Shown: piece after piece, positions 5,772 through 19,248 of the stretch
Layout: each line of letters opens with the position of its first letter
Numbering within the stretch: position 1 is the first letter of the stretch
DNA from: Allocatelliglobosispora scoriae
Lineage (GTDB): Bacteria; Actinomycetota; Actinomycetes; Mycobacteriales; Micromonosporaceae
Length of the DNA stretch: 64,000 nucleotides
NCBI RefSeq assembly: GCF_014204945.1
Contig: NZ_JACHMN010000001.1
Location: 1,054,001 to 1,118,000 of the forward strand
Reading direction: 5' to 3'
Translations under genes and position numbers: made by a program
The notes under the pieces: model-generated
Told to the model about the DNA's origin: nothing
The model's input: only the letters and a program-made list of their open reading frames with translations
Database searches by the model: none

Positions 5772-5800
5772 TTGACATTGAAGAATTTCTCGACAATGAT
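5772..5800 (+). promoter_or_regulatory. Candidate promoter of the NRPS cluster
   Basis: A perfect -35 box TTGACA (5772-5777) is followed after 17 bases by AATGAT (5795-5800), a 4/6 match to a -10 box. The surrounding DNA is unusually AT-rich for this genome. Transcription would begin near 5807 and leave a leader of about 230 bases before the first start codon at 6036. Confidence 0.55.
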
Positions 5801-5863: not shown

Positions 5864-6035
5864 ACGACCGCTGCCTACGCCATCCCACACCAGCCAGACA
5901 CTCCGAATCGTCGTCCTCCGGCCGACGATCGCATCCTGGCGCCCGGGATCCCCCGTGCCGCTCCGGCGGTCATGCGGGCTGCCGGTAAGCCGAACACCGG
6001 CCCGCCCACTCCCGGTCAGGAAGGCTGGAGGTCCC

Positions 6036-7811
6036 ATGCGACGCACCACCAAGCTCGACCAATGGAGCCAGGAGCTCCAGCGCGCCCGAGACCCGCAGGA
6101 ACTCTTCGGCGCCAGCGCCCACCACGGCACCGTACGGCTGCTGACCATGAGCGGGAAGATCCCGTTCCGCTCCGCCGTCGACGGCATGACCCCGCGCGAG
6201 CAGTCCGTCATCCGGCACCTGCTCGGCCGCGACGAGATCACGCTGACCCCGGTGGACTCCCCGGGCCTCGCCGCCTGCGACGTGCTGCTCGCCCACTCGG
6301 CGCTGGGCAAGCTGACCCTGCACGAACCCGCCCTCGGCGACCACCCCGACAGCGAGGTCGTCGCCGGGCTGGCCCTGCCGGACTGGCTGCGCGAGATGGT
6401 CGACGAGGAGGACCGCGCCGCCCGCGCCGCCGAGGACAACGAGCGCCGCCAGCTCGAGGAACTGCTCACCGGCTGGGTCGCCGACGGCTCCCTCGCCCGG
6501 CGCCTGGAGGAGGTCATCGACTGGGTCGAACGCGTCGAAACCGTCCTCGTCTACATCGGACGACGGATCTTCTCCCGCTCCGACTCCGGCTCCAGCACCC
6601 TGATCCGCGACGCCGTCCTGCCGGCCCTGCGCGACCGCGACCCCGCGGACTGGGCCCCCGAGGAACGCCTGTTCGTCGCCGCCATCCAGCTGCTGTTCCG
6701 CACCGGGCGGGCGGTGCGGTTCGAGGAGTTCAACGGCCGCCAGCTCAGCGCCGTCGGACTGCGCCAGGTGCTGCTGGGCCGGTGCGCCGCCTACCGGACC
6801 TCGCTCGGCGCCGCCCCCGCCACCGACCTGAGCACGGCGACGCTGGCGGAGCTCGCCGCGATCGCCGGCGACCTGGTGCCGCTCGTCGACGGCGGCGACG
6901 CCATGCGCTACCGCCGGGTCAACGGCCTGACCTACGCCAAGGACGAGTTCCTGCTGCCCTGGCCGCAGCACGACCGGGTGCTCGCCGAGCCCGCCCCGGC
7001 CATGCTCGCGCTCGCCTCGGCCCGGCGCTGGGACGACGGCGCCGCCGACGACGCCGCGACCTGGGTACGCCGGATGACCGGCCACGCCCTGCGCTCGGCC
7101 GCCGACGGCCTGGGCGTCGACGACCTGCAGGACGTGCTGCAGAGCATCGTCCTGGCCGCCGTCGTCGCCGGGAAAGCCGACTACGGCATGTCCAGCGGCG
7201 TCCGGGACCTGGCCCGGCTCGCGCAGGAGGCGGAGGGCTTCGGCGAAGGGATGCAGGCGCTGAAGAAGCCCGACTTCTTCTGCTGCGTGCTGCCGAGCGC
7301 CGCGATGGCCGAGGACCTGCCGGAGGAGGAGGTCACCGACATCCTGTGGCAGGTCGCACAGCGGATGATGTACAACCGCTGGCACTTCGTCCCCGGCAAC
7401 TTCGACCGCGCCGAGGTCCCCCGCAACCGGCACTACTTCTTCCCGCCGCTCGTACCCGACATCGGCGAATGGGCGGACCTGCGCCACGGCGGGCACAGCA
7501 CCGCCCGGGTCCGCTTCACCCTGCGAGCGCCGGGCGCCGCGATGTGGCTGCCGCCGCTGAGCGTGGGCGGCAAGAACTACCGGGGCGCCTACGACATCCG
7601 GCTGGTCCGGATGGACGGGCCGCCGTTCACCGTGGACGACATGCGCACCGCCAGCCGGTTCTCCGCCCTCGTCGACATCTTCTGGCGGGAGATCGCCGCG
7701 CACACCGACGCCCACGGCGGCCACGCACCGGTCTTCACCGGCTTCACCGCCGAGTGGTACGCCAAGACCGCCTGGCTCGACACCGTCCGCTCCCTCGGCG
7801 GTGGCCAGTGA
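6036..7811 (+). CDS. Unknown 591-aa protein, first gene of the NRPS cluster
   Basis: The start ATG has GGAGG 4-8 bases upstream. I do not recognise a family. The N-terminal 150 residues are helical and acidic (EMVDEEDRAARAAEDNERRQ). A middle helical section (about 150-400) follows. The C-terminal third is rich in aromatics, His and Arg: a CC pair in DFFCCVLPSA, MMYNRWHFVPGNFD, RNRHYFFPPLVPD, then WADLRHGGHS and VRFTLRAPGAAMWLPPL. The clustered His/Tyr/Trp residues look like a binding or catalytic pocket, but no metal-site signature is clear. The stop overlaps the NRPS start by 4 bases (GTGA), so translation is coupled. It may tailor, load or supply the NRPS substrate. Confidence 0.85.
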   Translation: MRRTTKLDQWSQELQRARDPQELFGASAHHGTVRLLTMSGKIPFRSAVDGMTPREQSVIRHLLGRDEITLTPVDSPGLAACDVLLAHSALGKLTLHEPALGDHPDSEVVAGLALPDWLREMVDEEDRAARAAEDNERRQLEELLTGWVADGSLARRLEEVIDWVERVETVLVYIGRRIFSRSDSGSSTLIRDAVLPALRDRDPADWAPEERLFVAAIQLLFRTGRAVRFEEFNGRQLSAVGLRQVLLGRCAAYRTSLGAAPATDLSTATLAELAAIAGDLVPLVDGGDAMRYRRVNGLTYAKDEFLLPWPQHDRVLAEPAPAMLALASARRWDDGAADDAATWVRRMTGHALRSAADGLGVDDLQDVLQSIVLAAVVAGKADYGMSSGVRDLARLAQEAEGFGEGMQALKKPDFFCCVLPSAAMAEDLPEEEVTDILWQVAQRMMYNRWHFVPGNFDRAEVPRNRHYFFPPLVPDIGEWADLRHGGHSTARVRFTLRAPGAAMWLPPLSVGGKNYRGAYDIRLVRMDGPPFTVDDMRTASRFSALVDIFWREIAAHTDAHGGHAPVFTGFTAEWYAKTAWLDTVRSLGGGQ

Positions 7812-10800
7812 GCCCCGACCGGTTGACCGTCGTCGTCAACGGCGAGGACCAGTATTCGCTCTGGCCCGCCGACCGCGACCGACCCGACGGCTGGAGCAGC
7901 ACCGGCGCCGAGGGCGGGCTCGACGAATGCCTGGCCTACGTCGCCGAGCACTGGACCGACCTGCGGCCGAGGTCGCTGCGCTCGCCGCGGGCTACCGCCG
8001 CGGCCCCCGTCGACGAGACCGCGGCCGCCGTGGACCCCGCGACGGCGAGAGCCCTCGGCCCGCGGGTGGCGATCGACGAGCAGCCGGTGCAGGTGCTGGT
8101 CGAGCGCGCCTGCACGGCGGATCCGGACCGGATCGCGGTGCGCTGCGGCGACGACACCGTCACCGCGGGCGAGCTGATCAGCCGGGTCCGGGAGTGGTCG
8201 CGAGTGCTGCGCGGCCACGGAGCCGCTGCCGAGACGCCGGTGGCGGTGCTGCTGCCCCGGTCGGTCGACGCCGTCACCGCCATCCTCGCGGTGCTGCACA
8301 GCGGGTCGGCGTACCTGCCGATGTCGTTTCTGGAACCACCCGACCGGCTGGCGCGGATCCTCGCCGACGCGGGCGAACCGGTCGTCATCGCCTCCGCCAC
8401 GACAGCCGGGCTGCTGCCCGGCTACGGCGGGACGGTGCTCGACATCGCGCACCCGCCGGCACCGGAGTCCGATGCAGACGACGGCGATCCGGACTGCGGC
8501 ATCGACAACCTCGCGTTCATCATGTACACCTCCGGGACCAGCGGCACCCCCAAGGGCGTGCTGGGAACACACCGGCAGCTCGTCAACTACGTGCGGTGGT
8601 GCGCGGCGGAGTTCCCGTTCACCGACAAGGAACGGGCGGTGCTGCACGCGCCGCTGCACTTCGTCGGCTCGGTGATGACCCTGTTCACGGCCCTGATCGC
8701 GGGCTGGGAACTGGTCGTGGCACCGGAACCGGTGCCGTTCGACGCCCTGATCGAGCTGACCGCGCAGGCGCCCTGCGGGTTCCTCAAGCTCACCCCGTCG
8801 CACGTGCGGGCCATGACCGCGCTCGGCGGGGTCGACGACATCGCCCGCCAGGTCATGATCGGCAGCGAGCCGCTCTACCTGACCCCGGAGTTCGACCGGT
8901 GGATCTCCGCCAGCCCGGCGTCGGGCTTCGGCAACCACTACGGCATGAGCGAGACCGTCGGCGCCACCTGGTGGTGGATCGGCGCGGACCGCACCGTCGG
9001 CGAGCGGCTGCCGGTCGGCGCGCCGATCCGCAACGCCGAGGTCTACGTGCTCGGCCCGGACGGGCAGCCGCTCGGGTTCGGCGAGGCCGGCGAGATCCAC
9101 CTCGGCGGGTCGGTGATCGGGCGCGGCTACCACGGGCAGCCGGTCCTCACCGCACAGCGCTGGGTGCCGCACCCGTGGGGCCCGCCGGGAGCACGGCTGC
9201 TGCGCACCGGCGACCTGGGGTCGATGCGCCCCGACGGGGTCCTCGACGTGCTGGGCCGCGCCGACCGGCAGGTCAAGATCCGGGGACAGCGGGTGGAGCC
9301 GCCCGCGGTCGAGGACGCGCTGCGCCGCTGCCCCGGGATCGCCGAAGCGGTCGTCGTCGCCGAACCCGACGGGCACGAGGTGCAGCTCGTCGCCTACCTG
9401 CGCCCCGAAGGCGAGGACCTGCCGACCGAGGCGGAGCTGCGCCGGCACGCGGCGAGCCTGCTGCCCGAGGCGTCGATCCCGGCCCGCATGCTCTACCTCG
9501 CCGCCTACCCGCTCACCCCCAACGGCAAGGTCGACACCCGGCGCCTGGCCCAGGCCCAGACGATCCGCCCCGCGCTGACCACGGCGTTCACCGAGCCCAC
9601 CGGGCCGGTCGAGATCGCCGTCGCCGCCGTCGTCGCCGACGTGCTCAAGACCGACCGCCTCGGCGCCCTCGACGACTTCTTCGAACTCGGCGGCGACTCG
9701 ATGCAGGTCGTCGAGGTCGTCACCCGCCTCGACGAAGAACTGGGCCTGCCCGCCGCGATCAGCGACGTCTTCGACCACCCGACCGTGCGGGCGCTCGCCG
9801 CCGCGCTCGCCGGGCGCGGTCCCGGCCGCGCGGCGGCTCCGGCCGCCGGGCAGCGGCCACCGCGCACGAGCAGCACGCCGGTCGCGCCCGCCCCGCCGAT
9901 CGGCACCGACACCGGTGGGGTACGCGCGCCCTTCGCCGCGGCCGACAGCGGCGACGCTCCGCTGACCTGGGGACAGCAGGCGATGTGGCGGCCGCTGCAG
10001 TGGTTCGGCGACGCGAGCGCGGACTTCAACATCAAGCGCGTCCTGCGACTGGGCCGCCCGGTGCCGATCGCCGACGCCGTGACCGCCTGGAGCGAACTGG
10101 TCGGGCGGCACCAGGTGCTGCGGACCCTCGTCACCGACGACGGCACCGGCCCCCGCCAACGGGTGCAGGCATCCGGCGACCACCGGCTGGAGCTGCGCGA
10201 CGGCGACCCCGACGAGGCGGCAGCCGCGCTGGCGGCGGCGCCGTTCGACCTGACCTCGCAGTGGCCGGTCCGGGTCGCCCTGATCACCGCCGACGGCCAG
10301 GCCGACGCGTTCGCGGTCGCCGCCTCCCACGCGGTGCTCGACGGCTGGGCGCTGGAACTGCTGCTGGGCGAGTGCCGCGACCTGCTGGAATCGGACCAGG
10401 CCCTGCCGCCGGTCGGCTGGCGGCCGCTGGACCAGGCCGCCTACGAGCAGTCCCCGGCCGGGCAGCGGCGGGCCGAGCAGGCCCTGGAGTTCTGGCGCGC
10501 CCAGCTTCCCGCCGCCCCGCAGCGGCTCTTCGCGGGACCGGACCTCGACGGCGGGGACCTGCCGATCGTGCGCTGGCGGCTGGAGTCGACCGCCATCCCC
10601 GCAGCGGCCGCGGCCCTCGCCCAGCGCACCGGTACGTCGTCGTCCACGGTGCTCCTCGCCGCCACCGGCCTCGTCCTCGGCGCCGCCAGCGGCCGCGACG
10701 ACGTGGTTCTCAAGCTGATCGCGGGCAACCGCTACACGCCCCGGCAGAAGGAGCTCGCGGCGCAGGCCGCCCAGGACGGCATCTACGTCTTCCGGCCCGG

Positions 10801-11248
10801 CGGCGGCGATGTGCTGGCGGCGATCAGCCGCTGCTACCGCGACTCCACCGAGTCCTACTTCCACGCCGCCTACCCGCCCGACGACCTCGCCGCACTGCTG
10901 ACGGCCGAGGCGGCAGACCGGGACCTGTCGGCGTTCTTCAACGACGCGCGGATGGGCCGCGACTGGGAGCCGACGCTGCCCGCCGAACCCACCCGGGCCG
11001 ACCTCGACCGGCTGCGCGCAGCCACCACCGTGGCGCAGGTCGCCGCCCTCGCCAAGCACGACATGACCTTCTACCTGCAGATGCCCTACCTCGCCGACGG
11101 CTGCGCGCTGCAGCTGCTCGCCGACACCCGCCGGATCTCCCCGGCGGCGTGCCTGCGGGCGCTGCGCGGCATCGAGACGCTCCTGTGCGAAGCGGTGCTG
11201 CGCGACGTCGCGGTCAGCGAGGTCGGCGAGCTGCTCGAACTGCCCTGA
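7808..11248 (+). CDS. NRPS: MbtH-adenylation-thiolation-condensation
   Basis: A 1146-residue single-module synthetase. Residues 1-57 are an MbtH domain (NGEDQYSLWP, then CLAYVAEHWTDLRP). The adenylation domain (about 95-595) has core motifs YTSGTSGTPKG near 239, NHYGMSET near 376, GEIHLGG, RTGD and NGKVD near 572. A carrier domain follows with LGGDSMQ, phosphopantetheine Ser about 631. The C-terminal condensation domain (about 717-1146) carries SHAVLDG at 840-846, where the first His of HHxxxDG is Ser but the catalytic second His and the DG remain. By hand alignment to GrsA the Asp235 position is Val, so the substrate may lack an ordinary alpha-amino group. There is no thioesterase or reductase domain. 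The GTG start overlaps the upstream stop. Confidence 0.93.
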   Translation: MSPDRLTVVVNGEDQYSLWPADRDRPDGWSSTGAEGGLDECLAYVAEHWTDLRPRSLRSPRATAAAPVDETAAAVDPATARALGPRVAIDEQPVQVLVERACTADPDRIAVRCGDDTVTAGELISRVREWSRVLRGHGAAAETPVAVLLPRSVDAVTAILAVLHSGSAYLPMSFLEPPDRLARILADAGEPVVIASATTAGLLPGYGGTVLDIAHPPAPESDADDGDPDCGIDNLAFIMYTSGTSGTPKGVLGTHRQLVNYVRWCAAEFPFTDKERAVLHAPLHFVGSVMTLFTALIAGWELVVAPEPVPFDALIELTAQAPCGFLKLTPSHVRAMTALGGVDDIARQVMIGSEPLYLTPEFDRWISASPASGFGNHYGMSETVGATWWWIGADRTVGERLPVGAPIRNAEVYVLGPDGQPLGFGEAGEIHLGGSVIGRGYHGQPVLTAQRWVPHPWGPPGARLLRTGDLGSMRPDGVLDVLGRADRQVKIRGQRVEPPAVEDALRRCPGIAEAVVVAEPDGHEVQLVAYLRPEGEDLPTEAELRRHAASLLPEASIPARMLYLAAYPLTPNGKVDTRRLAQAQTIRPALTTAFTEPTGPVEIAVAAVVADVLKTDRLGALDDFFELGGDSMQVVEVVTRLDEELGLPAAISDVFDHPTVRALAAALAGRGPGRAAAPAAGQRPPRTSSTPVAPAPPIGTDTGGVRAPFAAADSGDAPLTWGQQAMWRPLQWFGDASADFNIKRVLRLGRPVPIADAVTAWSELVGRHQVLRTLVTDDGTGPRQRVQASGDHRLELRDGDPDEAAAALAAAPFDLTSQWPVRVALITADGQADAFAVAASHAVLDGWALELLLGECRDLLESDQALPPVGWRPLDQAAYEQSPAGQRRAEQALEFWRAQLPAAPQRLFAGPDLDGGDLPIVRWRLESTAIPAAAAALAQRTGTSSSTVLLAATGLVLGAASGRDDVVLKLIAGNRYTPRQKELAAQAAQDGIYVFRPGGGDVLAAISRCYRDSTESYFHAAYPPDDLAALLTAEAADRDLSAFFNDARMGRDWEPTLPAEPTRADLDRLRAATTVAQVAALAKHDMTFYLQMPYLADGCALQLLADTRRISPAACLRALRGIETLLCEAVLRDVAVSEVGELLELP

Positions 11249-11286: not shown

Positions 11287-12261
11287 ATGACCGAGACCTT
11301 CGCGACGCTGCGGGAGCTCGCCGCCCAGGACGCGCCGGAGCTGCTCGACACACCGCTGCCGCCCGACCACCGCTACCAGGTCGTCACGACCACGGTGGCG
11401 GAGGTGACCGCGCAGATCGTGGCGACGCTGCGGACCGGGTTCGCCGGGGTCGCCGCGGCCGACTTCCCGCTGCTCGTGGTCGGATGGGGCCGCTGCCGGG
11501 TCGGGTCGACCGCGGTGACGAACCTGTTCGGCATGGCCGGGGCCGCCTCCTACTACCAGCCGGTCAAGACCATCGGCCGGTTCGTGCTCACCGGCGGCCA
11601 GGGCGCGCCGTGGAAGCCGCCGGTCGGCGAGCCGGTCGCGTTCGCGAAGGAGATGGCCGGGCCGTACGTGCCGTTCGAGGACCTCTTCAACCCCGCCCAG
11701 TGCCTCATCGAAGCCGGGTGGCCGGTGGAGAAGCTGCACCTGATGGTGCTCGACCGGGAGCCGCGCGCGTCGATGGACTCGTGGATGGCGAAGTGGGAGG
11801 GCAAGATCGGCCGCGAGCGGGTGGCGGAGAACTTCTACCTGAGCACCCTCAACTACGCCCGGATGCGCAGCTTCGCCGCCCGTGAAGGACTCGCCACGAC
11901 GCACTTCCCCTACGAGTGCAGCAAGCGGCCGGAGGAGACGGTGTCGCGGCTGTTCGCCCGGATCGGGATCAGCGACCTCTACGACCCGGCGATGCTCACC
12001 GGATGGGGGCAGGCCGGCGACCTGAACTCCGAACAGTCGAAGATCCACAACCCGGTGGAGCCGGAGCCCTACATCGTGCCCGGCCTGCACGGATCCGGCG
12101 ACGAATACCGCTACCGCGCCCGCGAGATCACCTGCCTCACCGCCGAGGAGCTCGCCGTCGCCGACAGCCCCGAGGTGCGGTCGGCGTACCAGGCCTCGGT
12201 GGGCGCCTGCACCACGGAGCTGGACCTGCCCGAGCCGCTGCGGGCCGAGATCTTCGGGTGA
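11287..12261 (+). CDS. Sulfotransferase-like protein of the NRPS cluster
   Basis: A 324-residue protein with a PAPS-binding-type P-loop, VVGWGRCRVGSTAVTNLFG (about residues 63-81), followed later by LDREPRASMDSWMAKW (about 157-172), which resembles the 3'-phosphate-binding RxxRxxxxSW motif of sulfotransferases. The usual RSGST loop is written CRVGST here. The ribosome site AGGGAGA lies 8 bases before the ATG, and the gene starts 38 bases after the NRPS stop. It would transfer a sulfonate from PAPS to the carrier-bound or released product. No PAPS biosynthesis genes lie in the window. A kinase-like P-loop enzyme is the alternative. Confidence 0.75.
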   Translation: MTETFATLRELAAQDAPELLDTPLPPDHRYQVVTTTVAEVTAQIVATLRTGFAGVAAADFPLLVVGWGRCRVGSTAVTNLFGMAGAASYYQPVKTIGRFVLTGGQGAPWKPPVGEPVAFAKEMAGPYVPFEDLFNPAQCLIEAGWPVEKLHLMVLDREPRASMDSWMAKWEGKIGRERVAENFYLSTLNYARMRSFAAREGLATTHFPYECSKRPEETVSRLFARIGISDLYDPAMLTGWGQAGDLNSEQSKIHNPVEPEPYIVPGLHGSGDEYRYRAREITCLTAEELAVADSPEVRSAYQASVGACTTELDLPEPLRAEIFG

Positions 12262-12271
12262 CCCGGGACCG

Positions 12272-14185
12272 ATGACGAGCACAACCACCCAGCCCCGGGC
12301 CGGGCTCTGGTCCGACGCGGTCGGCGCCCGATGGCGGATCGCCCGCCTGCTGCCCGCGGCCGGCATCGGCGCCAGCACCGCCGCGATCGTCCTGAGCCTG
12401 CTGCGCGGACTGCTGCCGGTGGCTTTCGCGCTCGCGGTCAGCACCGCCGTCGGCCGCATCCCGGCCGCCCTCGCTGGCGGCGCGGTCGACCTGTCCGGGC
12501 TGTGGCGGGCGCTGATCGCCGCCTGCGGCGCGCTCATCGGGCTGCAGCTCGCCGAGGCCGCGCAGAAGGCGCTCGGCGAACGGCTCAGCCGCCGCGTCGA
12601 CGGCCACATGTACGCCCGCCTCATCCAGGCCGCCCTCTCCTCCCGCGAGATCACCCCGCTGGAGGAGAAGGCGGTCCTCGACGAGCTGGGCGAGGCGAGC
12701 CACGAGCTGCGGTTCGCGTTCCGCACCCCCGGCGCCGCCTACGCCGGGCTGATCGCCCTGGTCGGGCCCTACACGCAGGTCGCCGGATTCACCGTGGTCG
12801 TCGCGGCGGCGCTCAACACGTGGGCGGCATTGGCGGTGCTCACGGTCGTCCTGCTGTTCCGGCAGGGTCAGCGCGGTGGGCTGCGCCGCTACGCCCGGGT
12901 CATCCGGGACGTGGCGGCGATCCGCCGGGAGAGCCGCTACCTGCGGGAGACCGCGATGGGGGCCGGTGCGGCGAAGGAGCTGCGGATCTTCGGGCTCACC
13001 GGCTGGTTCGCCGACCGGTACCGCGAGGTCTACCTGCGTACCCTCGCCCCGGTCTGGGCCGAGCGGCGGCGCATCTACCTCAAGCCGTACCTCGCGTACA
13101 CCCTGGTGGGGTTGACCCTCACCGCCGTCGTGCTGGCACTGGCGGGCCGCCGGGCCGCCGGCGGCGCGCTGGACCTGGCCGGGCTGGCCCTGGTCCTGCA
13201 GGCGGTGATGGCGCTGCTGCGGCTCGGCGAGTTCTACCCCGACTCCGACACCCAGACCCAGTACGGCATGAACGCCGCCACCGCGATCAGCAGGTTCGAA
13301 GCAGCGATGGCCCGCCACACCGAACCCGACGACCCGGCCGCAGCCGGTGCGGCCGCCCGGATCGGCACGGCACCGCAGATCCGGTTCGCCGGGGTGCGCT
13401 TCGGCTACCCCGGCGCCGACCGGCCGGTCCTCGACGGCCTCGAGCTGACGCTCGCGTCCGGCACGTGCACCGCGATCGTCGGAGTCAACGGCGCCGGCAA
13501 GACCACCCTCGTCAAGCTCCTCGCCCGGCTCTACTCCCCCACCAGCGGCGCCGTCCTCGCCGACGGCGTCGACCTCGCCGGGCTCCCGACCGCCGACTGG
13601 CAGGCCCGCATCGCCGTCGTCTTCCAGGACTTCGTCCGCTACGAACTCTCCGCAGCCGCCAACATCGGCTTCGGCGCCGTCGGCCACCTCGACGACACCG
13701 ACGGGATCCGGCGCGCCGCCGACGCCGCCGGGATCCTCGCCGCCCTCGACGGCCTGCCCCACGGCCTGGACACGCTGCTGTCGCGCGCCTATGACGACGG
13801 CACCGACCTCTCCGGCGGGCAGTGGCAGCGGATCGCGATCGCCCGCGCCCTCTTCGCGCTCTACCACGGCAGCTCGATCCTCGTCCTCGACGAACCCACC
13901 GCCGCCCTCGACGTCCGCGCCGAAGCCGAGTTCTACGCCCGGTTCGCCGAACTCACCCGCGGCCGCACCACCGTGCTCATCTCGCACCGGTTCGCCAGCG
14001 TCCGGCTCGCCGACCACATCGTCCTGCTCGACGGCGGTCGCGTCGCCGAGCAGGGAACCCATGACGAGCTGGTGGCGCTCGGCGGCCGCTACGCGGCGAT
14101 GTTCACCCTCCAGGCGGAACGGTTCGACACGGACACCCCGGTCGAATCGCCAGACGACGCGGCCCAGCCGCAGAAGGTCCGGTAG
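12272..14185 (+). CDS. ABC exporter half-transporter 1 (TMD-NBD fusion)
   Basis: A 637-residue half transporter. The membrane domain spans about residues 20-330 and holds the AKELRIFGL motif common in actinobacterial peptide and lanthipeptide exporters. The ATPase domain has an intact Walker A (GVNGAGKTT, about 407), signature LSGGQWQR (about 515) and Walker B with catalytic Glu (ILVLDEPTAALD), plus the H-loop ISHRFASV. It starts 10 bases after the sulfotransferase stop and is 5 bases from the next transporter gene. The pair likely forms a heterodimer that exports the NRPS product. Confidence 0.92.
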   Translation: MTSTTTQPRAGLWSDAVGARWRIARLLPAAGIGASTAAIVLSLLRGLLPVAFALAVSTAVGRIPAALAGGAVDLSGLWRALIAACGALIGLQLAEAAQKALGERLSRRVDGHMYARLIQAALSSREITPLEEKAVLDELGEASHELRFAFRTPGAAYAGLIALVGPYTQVAGFTVVVAAALNTWAALAVLTVVLLFRQGQRGGLRRYARVIRDVAAIRRESRYLRETAMGAGAAKELRIFGLTGWFADRYREVYLRTLAPVWAERRRIYLKPYLAYTLVGLTLTAVVLALAGRRAAGGALDLAGLALVLQAVMALLRLGEFYPDSDTQTQYGMNAATAISRFEAAMARHTEPDDPAAAGAAARIGTAPQIRFAGVRFGYPGADRPVLDGLELTLASGTCTAIVGVNGAGKTTLVKLLARLYSPTSGAVLADGVDLAGLPTADWQARIAVVFQDFVRYELSAAANIGFGAVGHLDDTDGIRRAADAAGILAALDGLPHGLDTLLSRAYDDGTDLSGGQWQRIAIARALFALYHGSSILVLDEPTAALDVRAEAEFYARFAELTRGRTTVLISHRFASVRLADHIVLLDGGRVAEQGTHDELVALGGRYAAMFTLQAERFDTDTPVESPDDAAQPQKVR

Positions 14186-14190
14186 CAGCG

Positions 14191-15969
14191 GTGTTCCGAG
14201 CGATCCGAGGACTCCTGCTCCTCTCCTTCCGGCAGCACCCGCGCAAGATGGCGATCGCGATCGCCCTGATGGCCGGCAACGCCGTCGCCGTCCCCGCCGG
14301 CGCGCTCGCCCTCAAACACCTCACCAACGAGGCCATCGCCGGGCACGCCGACCGGGCGGCCACCGCCGGGATCATCGTCGCCGCCTGCGCGATGGCCGCG
14401 CTGACCTGCGCGCACTTCGCACACATCGCCTACTTCGAAGTCTCCGAGATCAACGTCCTCACCATGGACCAGCGGCTGATCGCCGTCAGCAACGGCTCGC
14501 CCTACCTCGACCACCACGAGCGCCCCGAGCACGCCGACCGGATGGCACTGGTCCAGGAGGAGCTTCAGCGGCTCGGCGAAGGGCTCCAGGCCCTGCTCAC
14601 CGGAGCATCGCTCGCCGTCGGACTCCTCATCACCACCGTGCTGCTCACCCTGGCCCACCCCGCGCTGATCGCCCTGCCACTGCTCGCCGTCCTGCCGCTG
14701 CTCGCCGGGCGCAAAGCCCAGGCGGCCGCCGAGCAGGCCCGCGAGCGCAGCGCCACCGACACCCGCCAGGCCCGCCACCTCTTCGAGCTCACCACCGCCG
14801 CCGCCTCCGCGAAGGAGCTGCGGCTGCTCGGCCTCACCGGCGAACTCCAGCAGCGCTACGCACGGCACTGGCAGCGCTCCAGCACCCGCATCTGGCGCGG
14901 CGAACTCGCCGCCGGACTGTGGCGGGCCGGCGGGCAGACGGTCTTCGCCTTCGGCTACGTCGGCGCCCTCATCCTCGTCGTCGGCGAGGCGGTCCGCGGC
15001 CGGGCCGGCATCGGTGACGTCGTGCTGGCGATCGTGCTCGCCGCGCAGCTCAACCAGCAGGTCGCCGCCGCGGTCACGATCGCGCAGCAGCTCCTGCGCA
15101 GCGGCCGGTCGCTGCAGCGATTCGACGAGGTACGCCAGACCGTCACCAACCTGGTCGGATCCGACCACACGATGCCGCCGCCGGACCGGCTCACCGACGG
15201 CATCCGGCTCGAACACGTCTCCTTCGCCTACCCAGGGACCGACGTACCGGTGCTTCGCGGCATCGACCTGCTGCTGCCCGCCGGAAGCACCGTGGCGATC
15301 GTCGGCGAGAACGGCGCCGGCAAGACCACCCTCGTCAAGCTGCTCGGGCGCCTTTACGAGGCGAGCAGCGGCCGGATCCTCGTCGACGGCACCGACCTGC
15401 GCCGCCTGGACCTCACCGCCTGGCGGCAGCGGATGTCCGCCGGGTTCCAGGACTTCGCCCGGTTCGAACTGACCGCGCGGACCGCCGTCGGCATCGGCGA
15501 CCTGCCCCGCGTCGCGGACGACCGGGCGGTGCAGACCGCGCTCGCCCGTGCCCGCAGCGGGGTCGTGACGGCACTGCCGTCCGGATTGGACACCCGGCTC
15601 GGGCGCAGCCACGCCGAGGGCGGCACGGACGTCTCGGGCGGCCAGTGGCAGCAGCTCGCCCTGGCCCGCGCCATGATGCGGGACGAGCCGCTGCTCATGA
15701 TCCTCGACGAGCCCGCGTCGGCGCTCGACGCGGAGGCCGAGCACCGGCTGTTCGCCCAGTACGCCGAGACCGCCTCCCGGGTCGCGAAGGAGACCGGCGG
15801 GATCACGGTCTTCGTCTCGCACCGGTTCTCCACCGTCCGGATGGCCGACCTGATCATCGTGATCGCCGGGGGCACCGTTCAGGAGTGCGGCACCCACGAG
15901 ACGCTGATGGCGCTGGCCGGGACGTACGCAGACCTCTACAACATCCAGGCCGCCGCCTACCGCCCCTGA
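14191..15969 (+). CDS. ABC exporter half-transporter 2 (TMD-NBD fusion)
   Basis: This 592-residue half transporter starts at GTG. Membrane helices fill residues about 15-300, with AKELRLLGL in the same place as in its partner. The ATPase domain keeps Walker A (GENGAGKTT), signature VSGGQWQQ, Walker B LLMILDEPASALD and H-loop VSHRFSTV, so both ATP sites of the presumed heterodimer look competent. This is the last gene of the cluster; the kinase gene follows after 80 bases with its own ribosome site. No separate terminator hairpin was recognised. Confidence 0.92.
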   Translation: MFRAIRGLLLLSFRQHPRKMAIAIALMAGNAVAVPAGALALKHLTNEAIAGHADRAATAGIIVAACAMAALTCAHFAHIAYFEVSEINVLTMDQRLIAVSNGSPYLDHHERPEHADRMALVQEELQRLGEGLQALLTGASLAVGLLITTVLLTLAHPALIALPLLAVLPLLAGRKAQAAAEQARERSATDTRQARHLFELTTAAASAKELRLLGLTGELQQRYARHWQRSSTRIWRGELAAGLWRAGGQTVFAFGYVGALILVVGEAVRGRAGIGDVVLAIVLAAQLNQQVAAAVTIAQQLLRSGRSLQRFDEVRQTVTNLVGSDHTMPPPDRLTDGIRLEHVSFAYPGTDVPVLRGIDLLLPAGSTVAIVGENGAGKTTLVKLLGRLYEASSGRILVDGTDLRRLDLTAWRQRMSAGFQDFARFELTARTAVGIGDLPRVADDRAVQTALARARSGVVTALPSGLDTRLGRSHAEGGTDVSGGQWQQLALARAMMRDEPLLMILDEPASALDAEAEHRLFAQYAETASRVAKETGGITVFVSHRFSTVRMADLIIVIAGGTVQECGTHETLMALAGTYADLYNIQAAAYRP

Positions 15970-16049
15970 CCCGCGGTGTCCCCCGCCCGGCTGACCTGGC
16001 GCAACCGGTGGATTTGACGAAACGGCGGCCGATACCGAAGGCTTCTCCC

Positions 16050-17420
16050 ATGCTGGACCGGGGGTTGACGCTCGGCGGCCGCTACACGCTCGTCACCCTG
16101 ATCGCCCGCGGCGGGATGGGCGAGGTGTGGCTCGCCGACGACATGGTGCTCGATCGCCGTGTCGCGGTGAAGATCCTGCTGCCGAACCTCGCCACGGACC
16201 CCGGGTTCGCCGCCCGGTTCCGGGCCGAGGCGCGGGCGATGGCGGCGCTGAGCGATCCCGGCATCGTCGAGATCTACGACTACGGCCAGACCGACTCGCT
16301 CGCCTACCTGGTGATGCAGTTCGTCGAGGGCGAGTCGCTGCTCTCCCTCGTGGACAGGGTGGGCCCGCTGGAGCCGTCGCGGGCGATGCGGATCCTGGCC
16401 CAGGCCGCCGACGCCATCCACGTGGCTCACAAGCAGGGGATCGTCCACCGCGACGTCAAGCCCGCCAACCTGCTGCTCCGACTGGACGGGCGGCTGGCGC
16501 TGACCGACTTCGGCATCGCCCGGATAATCGCCGCCGACCGGCTCACGGCGGCCGGGGAGTTCTTCGGCACCGCCTCCTATCTGGCCCCGGAGCAGGTCAC
16601 CGGGGCTGAGATCGGTCCGGCGACCGATGTGTACGCGCTCGGCATCGTCGCCTACGAGATGCTGGCGGGACGCAAGCCGTTCGCGGGCGACAACCCGCTC
16701 GAGGTGGCACTTCAGCACGTCAACGAGGCACCCCCGGAGCTGCCCGCGAGCATTCCGGGACCGGTCCGGGCCATCGTGATGCGGGCGCTGGCGAAGGACC
16801 CCGCCCAACGCTGGCCCAGCGCCGCCGCACTCGCGCACGCCGCCGCCACGGCCCGCCGGGAGCTCACGGCGACGGCGACGCTGCCCCGTCCTGTCGCCGC
16901 CCACGCGGCAGCTCCTCGCCGCCGGAGATGGGCGGTGCTCGCCGGTGCAGTGGCGGCGCTGGTGCTCGTACCCGTCGCGATCTTCGTTTTTGCCGATGGC
17001 GGCGCTGACGACGCTCGGCCGCAGGGCGCCGCGGCCTCGCCTTCCGCGAGCCCTGCCGTCGCCGCCTCGGGCGTGCCGACGCCGAGCGTGTCGCCGTCCG
17101 TGCGCGTGACGCCCAGCCGCCGCGCGCCCTCGGCCTCGGCCGCGCCCAGCGGCGGCGGGCCGTCCGCGACCGCGTCCCCCACGGCCGAGCCGAGCCCGCT
17201 GCCCGCGAAGCGGATGGTGCCGGGCATGTACGGCTGGCGGGAGGTCGAGGTCCGGGCGGAGATGAAGCGCCTGGAGCTCGTCGCCCGCATCGAGTACAGG
17301 TCCACGTTCGACAAGTGCTATGTCATCGATCAGTCCCCGCCGGGAGGCACGGTCGTGCCCGCCGGTTCCACGGTCGACGTCGTGATCGCCACGGCGACCG
17401 GCATCTGCATCGTCGTCTAG
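16050..17420 (+). CDS. PknB-type Ser/Thr protein kinase with one PASTA domain
   Basis: A 456-residue membrane kinase. The catalytic domain (about 11-265) has the Gly loop ARGGMGEVW, VKIL Lys, HRDVKPANLLL catalytic loop, DFGIAR and YLAPEQ. A juxtamembrane Arg cluster precedes one membrane helix (about 292-315, WAVLAGAVAALVLVPVAIFVF). Outside lies a Ser/Pro/Ala-rich linker, then a single PASTA-like domain (about 388-456: VPGMYGWREVEVRAEM, ending IDQSPPGGTVVPAGSTVDVVI) with two Cys. PASTA domains sense peptidoglycan fragments. The ATG is preceded by GAAGG. Its stop codon and that of the facing gene share the palindrome CTAG. Confidence 0.93.
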   Translation: MLDRGLTLGGRYTLVTLIARGGMGEVWLADDMVLDRRVAVKILLPNLATDPGFAARFRAEARAMAALSDPGIVEIYDYGQTDSLAYLVMQFVEGESLLSLVDRVGPLEPSRAMRILAQAADAIHVAHKQGIVHRDVKPANLLLRLDGRLALTDFGIARIIAADRLTAAGEFFGTASYLAPEQVTGAEIGPATDVYALGIVAYEMLAGRKPFAGDNPLEVALQHVNEAPPELPASIPGPVRAIVMRALAKDPAQRWPSAAALAHAAATARRELTATATLPRPVAAHAAAPRRRRWAVLAGAVAALVLVPVAIFVFADGGADDARPQGAAASPSASPAVAASGVPTPSVSPSVRVTPSRRAPSASAAPSGGGPSATASPTAEPSPLPAKRMVPGMYGWREVEVRAEMKRLELVARIEYRSTFDKCYVIDQSPPGGTVVPAGSTVDVVIATATGICIVV

Positions 17421-18394
17421 GGCGCCAGCACGCAGGTGGGGCTGGGCACGGCGAGGGTCGACACGACCGCCGGGACACCGGTCGCCGGGTCGATGAGCAT
17501 CGTGGTCAGCTCGTCGGACTTCTGGTTGGCGACGTGCAGGTGCGGGCCGACGACGGCGATGTGCCGGGGCCATGCGCCGGTCGGCACCTCGGTGACATAC
17601 TCCGGCAGCTCGGCACCGAGCCGGAACACGCTCACCGTGTCGACACCCCGATTGGCGACGTAGAGGAAATCCCCGCCGACGGCGAGCTCCGAGACGAGGC
17701 ACTCGCCGGTGGACCGGGTCGCGGGGACCTGCCCGACCAGCCGCCAGTCCGCGTCGTAGACCAGCACCTGCGTGCTGAGCTCGGCGGTGACGAGCCACGC
17801 GTCGCCGACCTGGACCAGGTGGCGGGGCCCGGATCGCGCCGGTGCCTCGATCAGCCCGTCGGCGATCAGCTTCCCGTCGCGCAGGCGGTAGCGGTAGATC
17901 GCGTCGCCGCCGAGGTCGGTGACGAGCAGCGCGCCGCCGGGCAGGGCCCGGACCTGGTGCGGGTGCCCGCCGTCCTGCCGCTCATGATCGCCGTGGCGGT
18001 CGTGGTGGACCAGGTCCGTGCGCTCCAGGATCGCGCCGCCGCCGTCGAGCCGGTGCACCGCGATGCTCCCGCCGGTGTAGTTGACGGTGACGAGGAACCG
18101 GCCGGTGGAGTCCACGGTGAGGTGGCACGGGTCGGCGCCGCCGGAGTCGACGACGGCTCCGAGCGGCGCGTCCGGCGCGTCGCCGCTGGTCGACCAGGCC
18201 GCGATGGTGCCCGTGTCGGTCTCGGTCTCCCCCACGGCGTAGAGCACGGGTCTCGTCGGGTGCCGGGCGAGAAAGGACGGTGAGGCGGCGGGCACGACCC
18301 GCTCCACCCGCACCGGCACGCCGGCCTCGGTCGCGACGACCGCGACACCGGCGCCCTGCCCTCGTTCGGGGGTGTAACAGCCCACCAGCAGCAC
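17417..18394 (-). CDS. Lactonase, 6-phosphogluconolactonase-like beta-propeller family (YbhE type)
   Basis: A 325-residue seven-bladed propeller protein. The GTG start giving MLLVGCYTP was chosen because family members begin this way and it lies 2 bases after the upstream stop; earlier ATGs fall inside the neighbouring gene. Repeats such as SPSFLARHPTRPVLYAV, FLVTVNYTGGSIAVH, GGHPHQVRALPGG and WPRHIAVVGPHLHVANQ are typical of lactonase PF10282. It is the last gene of a three-gene operon and would open the sugar lactone produced by the adjacent dehydrogenase. Confidence 0.88.
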   Translation of the reverse strand: MLLVGCYTPERGQGAGVAVVATEAGVPVRVERVVPAASPSFLARHPTRPVLYAVGETETDTGTIAAWSTSGDAPDAPLGAVVDSGGADPCHLTVDSTGRFLVTVNYTGGSIAVHRLDGGGAILERTDLVHHDRHGDHERQDGGHPHQVRALPGGALLVTDLGGDAIYRYRLRDGKLIADGLIEAPARSGPRHLVQVGDAWLVTAELSTQVLVYDADWRLVGQVPATRSTGECLVSELAVGGDFLYVANRGVDTVSVFRLGAELPEYVTEVPTGAWPRHIAVVGPHLHVANQKSDELTTMLIDPATGVPAVVSTLAVPSPTCVLAP

Positions 18395-18396
18395 GA

Positions 18397-19248
18397 TCAG
18401 CTCCCATTCGGACGGTGGAGATACTCCGGTCGAAGGCCCAGTATCTCCGTCGCCGGGGCGAGGTCCAGCGGCACGGTCCATCCTGGCAGCTCACGCCGCC
18501 TAGGCACGTCCGGCAGCCACCGCCGCAGCAGCTCCTCGGTGGGCGCTGCGGCGAGCGTCTGCGGCGCGGCCACGGTGAACATCCGATAACCCGACAGCTG
18601 CGCGGTCAGCGCCAGCCACGCGGCGGTCGCGGCATCGCGATCCTCCAGGTACGCCCAGAGCGAGGCCGCACCCCGCTGGGGCTCGTACCGGTAGCGGTCG
18701 GCGTAGGTGGGCAGCCGGTCGCCGAGGCCGCCCAGCAGCGGGTACCGCAGGGTGATCACGGTCATCCCGTAGCGGCGGGCCATCATCGCCCCCGTCGCCT
18801 CGTCGGCCTGCTTGCCCAGCGCGTAGGAGTCGGCGGCCTGCAGCGGGTGGTCGTCGTCGATCGGCAGGTAGGCCGGGACCAGCGGCGACGGCGCGAACGC
18901 GAACCCGAGGATCGACTGGCTGCCCGCGAGCACCGCCCGGGTCACCTTGGCCCGCGCCGCCTGCTCCAGGACGGTGAAGGTGGCCAGGGAGTTCCCGCCG
19001 AAGACCCGCTCGGCGGTGTCGAGGAACGGTGACGGGATCGCCGCGCAGTGCACCACCGCGTCGGCCCCGTCGAGGGCCTCCCGGACCGCGTCTACATCGC
19101 CGGCGGCGCCGATGACCATCCGGTCGACCGGGGCGTCGGCGACCGGCACCAGGTCCAGGCCGGTCGAGGCGACGCCGCGTTCGGCGAGCAGCCGCAGCAC
19201 GGCCCGCCCGAGCCGACCGGACGCACCGGTCACCAGGACCCGTCTCAC
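18397..19248 (-). CDS. NAD-dependent epimerase/dehydrogenase (possible uronate/aldose dehydrogenase)
   Basis: A 283-residue extended short-chain dehydrogenase. The Rossmann motif is VTGASGRLGRAVL at the N-terminus, and the catalytic pair is in SYALGKQADE (YxxxK) near residue 152. The GTG start overlaps the stop of the upstream dehydratase by 4 bases. Position between a lactonase and an enolase-superfamily dehydratase suggests it oxidises a sugar or uronate C1 to a lactone rather than epimerising a nucleotide sugar. No nucleotide-binding feature separates the two possibilities by eye. Confidence 0.85.
   Translation of the reverse strand: MRRVLVTGASGRLGRAVLRLLAERGVASTGLDLVPVADAPVDRMVIGAAGDVDAVREALDGADAVVHCAAIPSPFLDTAERVFGGNSLATFTVLEQAARAKVTRAVLAGSQSILGFAFAPSPLVPAYLPIDDDHPLQAADSYALGKQADEATGAMMARRYGMTVITLRYPLLGGLGDRLPTYADRYRYEPQRGAASLWAYLEDRDAATAAWLALTAQLSGYRMFTVAAPQTLAAAPTEELLRRWLPDVPRRRELPGWTVPLDLAPATEILGLRPEYLHRPNGS

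Follow-up and report, generated by a model that had tools for sequence, protein, structure and literature searches.

The question raised by this locus is what a 591-aa protein does at the head of a nonribosomal peptide synthetase (NRPS) operon. Within the 64-kb stretch of DNA that was analyzed (the window), its open-reading frame spans positions 6036–7811 of the forward strand, with 591 codons, zero internal stops, an ATG start, and a TGA at 7809–7811, and an RBS-like GGAGG lies at 6027–6031, 5′ of the ATG at 6036. An alternative, longer frame from a TTG at 5772 was disfavored, as close homologues start at the equivalent of 6036. The NRPS frame starts with a GTG at 7808, and the stop and start codons overlap in the sequence GTGA at 7808–7811. 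The first-pass annotation had read this overlap as coupling of the 591-aa protein to the NRPS, a reading borne out by its conservation: a stop/start overlap is kept in all eight distinct loci of the NRPS-operon type (the window, L005–L010, and L025), as GTGA in each case except L010, where it is ATGA.

The same annotation had assigned the protein to no recognised family. This was correct for Pfam and NCBIfam, neither of which has a model that reaches its cut-off with the protein; the best Pfam E-value obtained with 15 members of its family was 0.26, and a phmmer search against PDB sequences returned E-values of 0.11 and worse. It was not correct with respect to the NegJ/KinJ/FzmP heme family of 2025, into which the protein falls. 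From its translation, homology, residues, and fold, we describe it here as a NegJ/KinJ-family protein, proposed to be heme-dependent and hydrazine-forming.

Probable membership in the NegJ/KinJ/FzmP family

In the available part of a 2025 preprint, PMC12154649, KinJ and FzmP are described as heme b proteins that, together with a ferredoxin, convert nitrite and L-aspartate to L-hydrazinosuccinate without oxygen. NegJ is presented there as a homologue reported to convert glycine to hydrazinoacetic acid, the hydrazine of negamycin; the study itself (Wang, Wei and Ryan 2025, Nat Chem Biol) is known to us through its citations in PMC12154649 and PMC13274452, both available in part. The associated products are kinamycin for KinJ, fosfazinomycin for FzmP, and lomaiviticin for Lom29 (PMC12154649). 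A figure legend in that paper gives Kitasatospora purpeofusca NRRL B-1817 as the source of NegJ, and Kitasatospora purpeofusca produces negamycin, a compound with an N–N bond. Alignment of the 591-aa protein with the homologue from this strain (locus L018) gave 242 identical residues out of 570 aligned (42–43%) over near full length. The L018 locus also has lysine-2,3-aminomutase-like, methyltransferase, and ATP-grasp genes, matching the negamycin cluster. Because strain and cluster agree, we take the L018 homologue to be NegJ, an identification made on strain and cluster and not on an accession. Judged by its sequence, the 591-aa protein almost certainly belongs to the NegJ/KinJ/FzmP family of heme-dependent hydrazine-forming enzymes.

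A scan of the genome collection yielded 14 loci, six of them in Micromonospora and Catellatospora at 66–68% identity and eight elsewhere at 38–45% (Dactylosporangium, Streptomyces, Kitasatospora, Allorhizocola, an actinobacterial MAG, and the chloroflexote Dictyobacter). Homologue matches per genome sample were 4/101 for relatives, 7/394 for the class, 6/397 for the order, and 21/295 for one genus, with the samples overlapping one another and the first three including the window's own genome. The class, order, and genus samples added 25 distant homologues, comprising 22 long matches at 27–34% identity and three short or weak ones (L061–L063). Five duplicates were dropped from the distinct-locus counts: two with equal scores (L024 = L009 and L026 = L016) and three separated by near-zero branches (L041 = L010, L042 = L005, and L045 = L017), the last three of which are still rows of the 41-row alignment. 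In a tree of 38 rows, from which L052, L056, and L062 were excluded, the NRPS-operon rows form a single clade (99/100), and 18 NRPS-operon and NegJ-type rows fall on one side (100/100) with 20 ferredoxin-adjacent rows opposite. The 591-aa protein is on the NegJ side of this family tree. Monophyly of the NegJ-type rows was weak, appearing in 24% of bootstrap trees, with a long-branch warning for L013. Mean identity of the 591-aa protein to the ferredoxin-adjacent rows, which have KinJ-like spacings, was 25%.

The residues listed around the heme of KinJ in the available part of PMC12154649 are K356, C468, R497, M498, N501, H504, H541, R551, and R570, with H541 as the proposed axial ligand; the H541A variant loses heme. 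R496 and R550, one lower, are also printed there, and the R497 and R551 set was used here. KinJ was mapped onto the window's protein by the offset and spacing of these published residue numbers and not by an aligned KinJ sequence. With an offset of −54, eight of the nine KinJ letters coincide with the 591-aa protein, as compared to at most two at the other 600 offsets. Among the ferredoxin-adjacent rows, the spacing that corresponds to C468–R497 (first Cys of FCC to the Arg) is 29 in 19 of 20 rows and 28 in L054, while that corresponding to R551–R570 (the last two Arg) is 19 in 19 of 20 and 20 in L060. Given these KinJ-like spacings, C468 was placed on C416 and R570 on R522. The residues found by the plain offset were dropped: F414 for C468, where the spacing of 29 gives C416, and R516 for R570, where R516 is kept in 18 of 41 rows and the spacing of 19 points to R522.

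In KinJ order, the counterparts are K302, C416, R443, M444, N447, H450, H487, R497, and R522. The near-homologue alignment keeps all nine in every one of its 15 rows, and the wider alignment does so in 40 of 41, the sole exception being the weak row L062, which differs at K302, C416, and H450. On the forward strand, offset mapping and alignment locate the codon for K302 (KinJ K356) at 6939–6941, the R443-M444-x-x-N447-x-x-H450 motif (KinJ R497, M498, N501, and H504) at 7362–7385, and the codon for H487 in RHGGH (KinJ H541, the proposed axial heme ligand) at 7494–7496. The C416 codon (KinJ C468), located by spacing in the ferredoxin-adjacent branch, is at 7281–7283, and the R497–R522 stretch (KinJ R551 and R570), located by offset plus spacing, is at 7524–7601. 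These positions also bear on a guess made in the first-pass annotation, that the many His, Arg, Tyr, and Trp residues in the C-terminal third of the protein resemble an active site. All 15 aligned homologues have H450, H466, H484, and H487, and two of the motifs it had singled out, HFVPGNF and LRHGGHS, contain H450 (KinJ H504) and H487 (KinJ H541, the proposed heme ligand), respectively. Since the KinJ-pocket counterparts are invariant, the guess was a good one.

Proposed reaction and alternative readings

The reading that follows combines homology, residue conservation, predicted fold, and operon conservation from this analysis with the heme, nitrite, ferredoxin, and hydrazine chemistry given for KinJ and FzmP, and for NegJ as reported there, in the available part of PMC12154649; from these, we infer the reaction of the 591-aa protein, its substrate, and everything downstream. 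By sequence, model, and analogy, the protein is very probably a NegJ-branch heme enzyme in which ferredoxin-driven reduction of nitrite would provide a nitrogen to be joined to the amine of an amino acid, yielding a hydrazino acid for the NRPS. Heme b would be bound in the C-terminal GAF-like domain and held by H487, with nitrite on the open face of the iron, placed by R443, R497, R522, N447, and perhaps K302. A low-potential ferredoxin whose gene lies elsewhere in the genome would supply a net four electrons, and the reduced nitrogen would then bond with the amine of a small amino acid, glycine being the likeliest, to give the hydrazino acid (hydrazinoacetic acid in the case of glycine).

A scan for the C..C..C...C (4Fe-4S) motif, which divergent ferredoxins can escape, found none in the 64-kb window or in L005–L018, L024, and L025, some of which end at contig edges. 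NegJ and FzmP subgroups are often without a nearby ferredoxin gene, and work on NegJ relied on a ferredoxin that its own cluster does not supply, according to the available part of PMC12154649. Of the 22 distant homologues with long matches, a count that excludes the short or weak L061, L062, and L063, 20 have paired motifs beside them; the weak row L062 has one unpaired motif. Two distant homologues at about 29% identity, L052 and L056, showed no ferredoxin motif within about 1.5 kb. Nine Fer4 matches are present elsewhere in the window's genome, one of them in an FdxA-like ORF on contig C2 (its type read by eye) that is, by sequence, a candidate for the ferredoxin partner. On the side of nitrite supply, a NarG search of the genome produced two matches, neither over cut-off.

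The adjoining NRPS (7808–11248, forward strand, 1146 aa) has the organization MbtH-A-T-C, as identified by Pfam matches to MbtH, AMP-binding, PP-binding, and condensation domains, and its LGGDSM and ASHxxLDGW sequences were kept in 7/7 rows. Condensation domains carry the motif HHxxxDG; in the C domain of this protein, which is its last domain, the second His and the Asp are present and the first His is replaced by Ser. In the A domain, FVGSVMTLF, kept in 7/7 rows, aligns with FDGSALDIF of LgrA. The Asp at this site holds the alpha-amine of the substrate. With this Asp missing, the domain probably does not take a plain alpha-amino acid; from the sequence, hydroxy, beta-amino, aryl, and hydrazino acids are all candidate substrates. 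We propose that a single amide or hydrazide bond is formed by the module: the A domain would load an acid that lacks the usual alpha-amine anchor, and the C domain at the end of the protein would hand the acyl group to a free acceptor, plausibly a hydrazine nitrogen. The MbtH-A-T-C protein would thus stand in place of the ATP-grasp ligase of negamycin-type clusters.

Glycine is the probable amine substrate by analogy, given the nearness of the 591-aa protein to NegJ. A plausible, if somewhat doubtful, alternative keeps the family and the heme chemistry and has the enzyme act on an amine other than free glycine, such as that of L-aspartate, of a different amino acid, or of a substrate tethered to the carrier domain of the NRPS. 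This would fit with the acceptance of L-Asp only by KinJ and FzmP (PMC12154649, available part) and with an A domain unlike those that usually take alpha-amino acids. The residues are divided on this point. S184, Y300, and S421 are invariant within, but different between, the seven NRPS-operon and eight NegJ-type rows, which speaks for another amine, whereas R448, H466, and R516 are common to the 591-aa protein and all NegJ-type rows, with none of the three in the distant rows. The position of the protein on the NegJ side of the tree likewise argues for glycine.

An AF2 model of the 591-aa protein (pLDDT 82, pTM 0.84) was compared using VIA-align in a run that covered mainly residues 166–561, and residues ~ 313–560 aligned with GAF domains. 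The top match was the photosensory histidine kinase 6ob8, with the best Z of 9.6 over 160 residues, and the heme GAF domains of DosS and DosT followed with Z of 8.7–8.8 over 132–134 residues at 19–20% identity. Because VIA-align itself gives 7 to 8 as the typical best Z for unmatched models, which 9.6 exceeds only modestly, we regard this value as support and not as proof. Foldseek returned 179 matches at E ≤ 10, none of them at E ≤ 0.001; the GAF domain of DosS ranked first (E 0.023), and the best 50 of the 179 were mostly phytochrome and other GAF-domain proteins. The C-terminal part of the protein, then, models as a GAF-like fold, and a resemblance to DosT and PixJ is reported for KinJ as well (PMC12154649, available part). 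With sensor GAF domains as the nearest folds, the protein could be taken for a heme/NO- or nitrite-sensing protein that regulates or assists the NRPS with no catalysis of its own, but the residues of the KinJ pocket are invariant and the homologue in the negamycin strain is reported as a hydrazine-forming enzyme (PMC12154649). On this residue conservation and relation to NegJ, we rejected the sensor reading, which we consider highly unlikely.

Whether homologues of the 591-aa protein always lie beside an MbtH-A-T-C protein, a point raised in the first-pass annotation, was answered in the negative: eight of 16 distinct near-branch loci have this arrangement and the other eight are elsewhere, six of them in negamycin-like settings. 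These six (L011, L012, L013, L014, L016, and L018) contain lysine-2,3-aminomutase-like, methyltransferase, and ATP-grasp ligase genes. Pfam identified the ATP-grasp ligase in L011, L012, and L013 as well as the other two genes of L013; the remaining assignments come from tblastn, whose weakest match, at 31%, is that of the aminomutase in L016. L014 and L016 also encode FemAB-like and MFS proteins, as does L018, judged by similarity. The last two loci, L015 and L017, lie in other settings, both with weak NRPS-like stretches further off. A new NRPS-dedicated enzyme with chemistry unrelated to N–N bonds, near to what the first-pass annotation had envisaged, is about equally improbable, since the absence of a Pfam or NCBIfam family and the strict NRPS coupling in 8/8 loci are outweighed by near-full-length homology to the NegJ-strain protein, by the conserved KinJ residues, and by the 8/16 near-branch loci without the MbtH-A-T-C operon.

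At L017:9932–13451, the NegJ-type homologue adjoins an AMP-binding ligase and tblastn gave no ATP-grasp or aminomutase match in the locus, which is possibly a further product type. In Dictyobacter arantiisoli (Chloroflexota), genes for a lysine-2,3-aminomutase-like protein, an ATP-grasp protein, and a methyltransferase accompany the NegJ-type homologue at L013:9959–15033, which places a negamycin-like cluster in a phylum other than Actinomycetota; Chloroflexota are not named in the available part of PMC12154649.

The five-gene cluster and its relation to known systems

The gene for the 591-aa protein is the first of five common to the window and seven other loci, the others encoding the NRPS, a 324-aa orphan protein, and two ABC proteins; the L007 contig stops partway through the fifth. 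Outside this block, ORFs of at least 100 aa in the window's first 26 kb had no listed match in the seven other loci at the thresholds used, and among the matches listed, some Micromonospora loci have further flanking genes in common with each other. The window also encodes a Ser/Thr kinase with a PASTA domain (15645–17420, forward strand, ORF as listed with a provisional start); a convergent gene that overlaps it by 4 bases (17417–18481, reverse strand) was read by eye as a beta-propeller lactonase. Neither of the two has a listed match in the other operon loci.

The orphan protein (11287–12261, forward strand) is 74–76% identical across six aligned loci (L005–L010) and is called sulfotransferase-like on motifs only. 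These motifs, GWGRCRVGST and LDRxPRASxDSW, were kept in 7/7 rows, and we take them to resemble the 5′-PSB-like and 3′-PB-like PAPS-binding loops of sulfotransferases. The orphan had no Pfam match over cut-off, and no sulfotransferase model was matched in Pfam (seven members, E ≤ 10), NCBIfam (window protein), or PDB sequences; AF2 gave no usable fold for it (pLDDT 38.4). Among 197 class genomes, four matched the orphan, with strong matches in the window's genome and in G003, which has the window's operon, and short and weak ones in the other two. The first ABC transporter permease/ATPase (12272–14185, forward strand) has as its best NCBIfam match an MsbA model, below cut-off, and the second (14191–15969, forward strand) was named by its similarity to the first. 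In the proposed pathway, the product, probably a small hydrazide, may be sulfonated by the sulfotransferase-like protein and would be exported by the two ABC proteins.

A protein missed by Pfam and NCBIfam is thereby assigned a specific, testable, and unusual chemistry: the heme-based formation of N–N bonds from nitrite, independent of oxygen. The compact five-gene cluster occurs in eight distinct Micromonosporaceae loci; we could not link its product to a known compound, and no description of the cluster or its product was found in the literature searched. Some gene clusters of the family contain NRPS modules (PMC12154649), and these may include the window's cluster type; the main text of that paper, as available, does not mention MbtH or a sulfotransferase. 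As the family has been known since 2025 and NRPS-module clusters are mentioned in PMC12154649, the surprise lies in the cluster and its product, not in the enzyme. We suggest, tentatively and with less than even confidence, that Micromonosporaceae make an apparently undescribed family of small exported N–N natural products, in which a NegJ-type enzyme would make a hydrazino acid, a lone MbtH-A-T-C protein, with an A domain that is missing the alpha-amine Asp and may itself activate the hydrazino acid, would join it to a free partner, and an orphan of a new sulfotransferase-like family would modify the hydrazide.

Compared to known systems, the 591-aa protein resembles the heme GAF domains of DosS and DosT in fold only; those are sensors and no membership among them is claimed. 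With KinJ, FzmP, and Lom29, it has in common the nine KinJ-pocket residues and the C-terminal GAF-like part, whereas KinJ and FzmP use L-Asp, and the mean identity quoted above is to the KinJ-spaced ferredoxin-adjacent rows and not to KinJ itself. NegJ is similar in its near-full-length homology, in the nine pocket residues, and in having no ferredoxin motif seen nearby, and both clusters hold a putative exporter and an amide-forming enzyme. In the window, however, the predicted amide former is an MbtH-A-T-C NRPS in contrast to the ATP-grasp ligase of the NegJ cluster, and the five-gene unit is without an aminomutase or a methyltransferase and carries a sulfotransferase-like gene and two ABC proteins where the NegJ cluster has an MFS protein.
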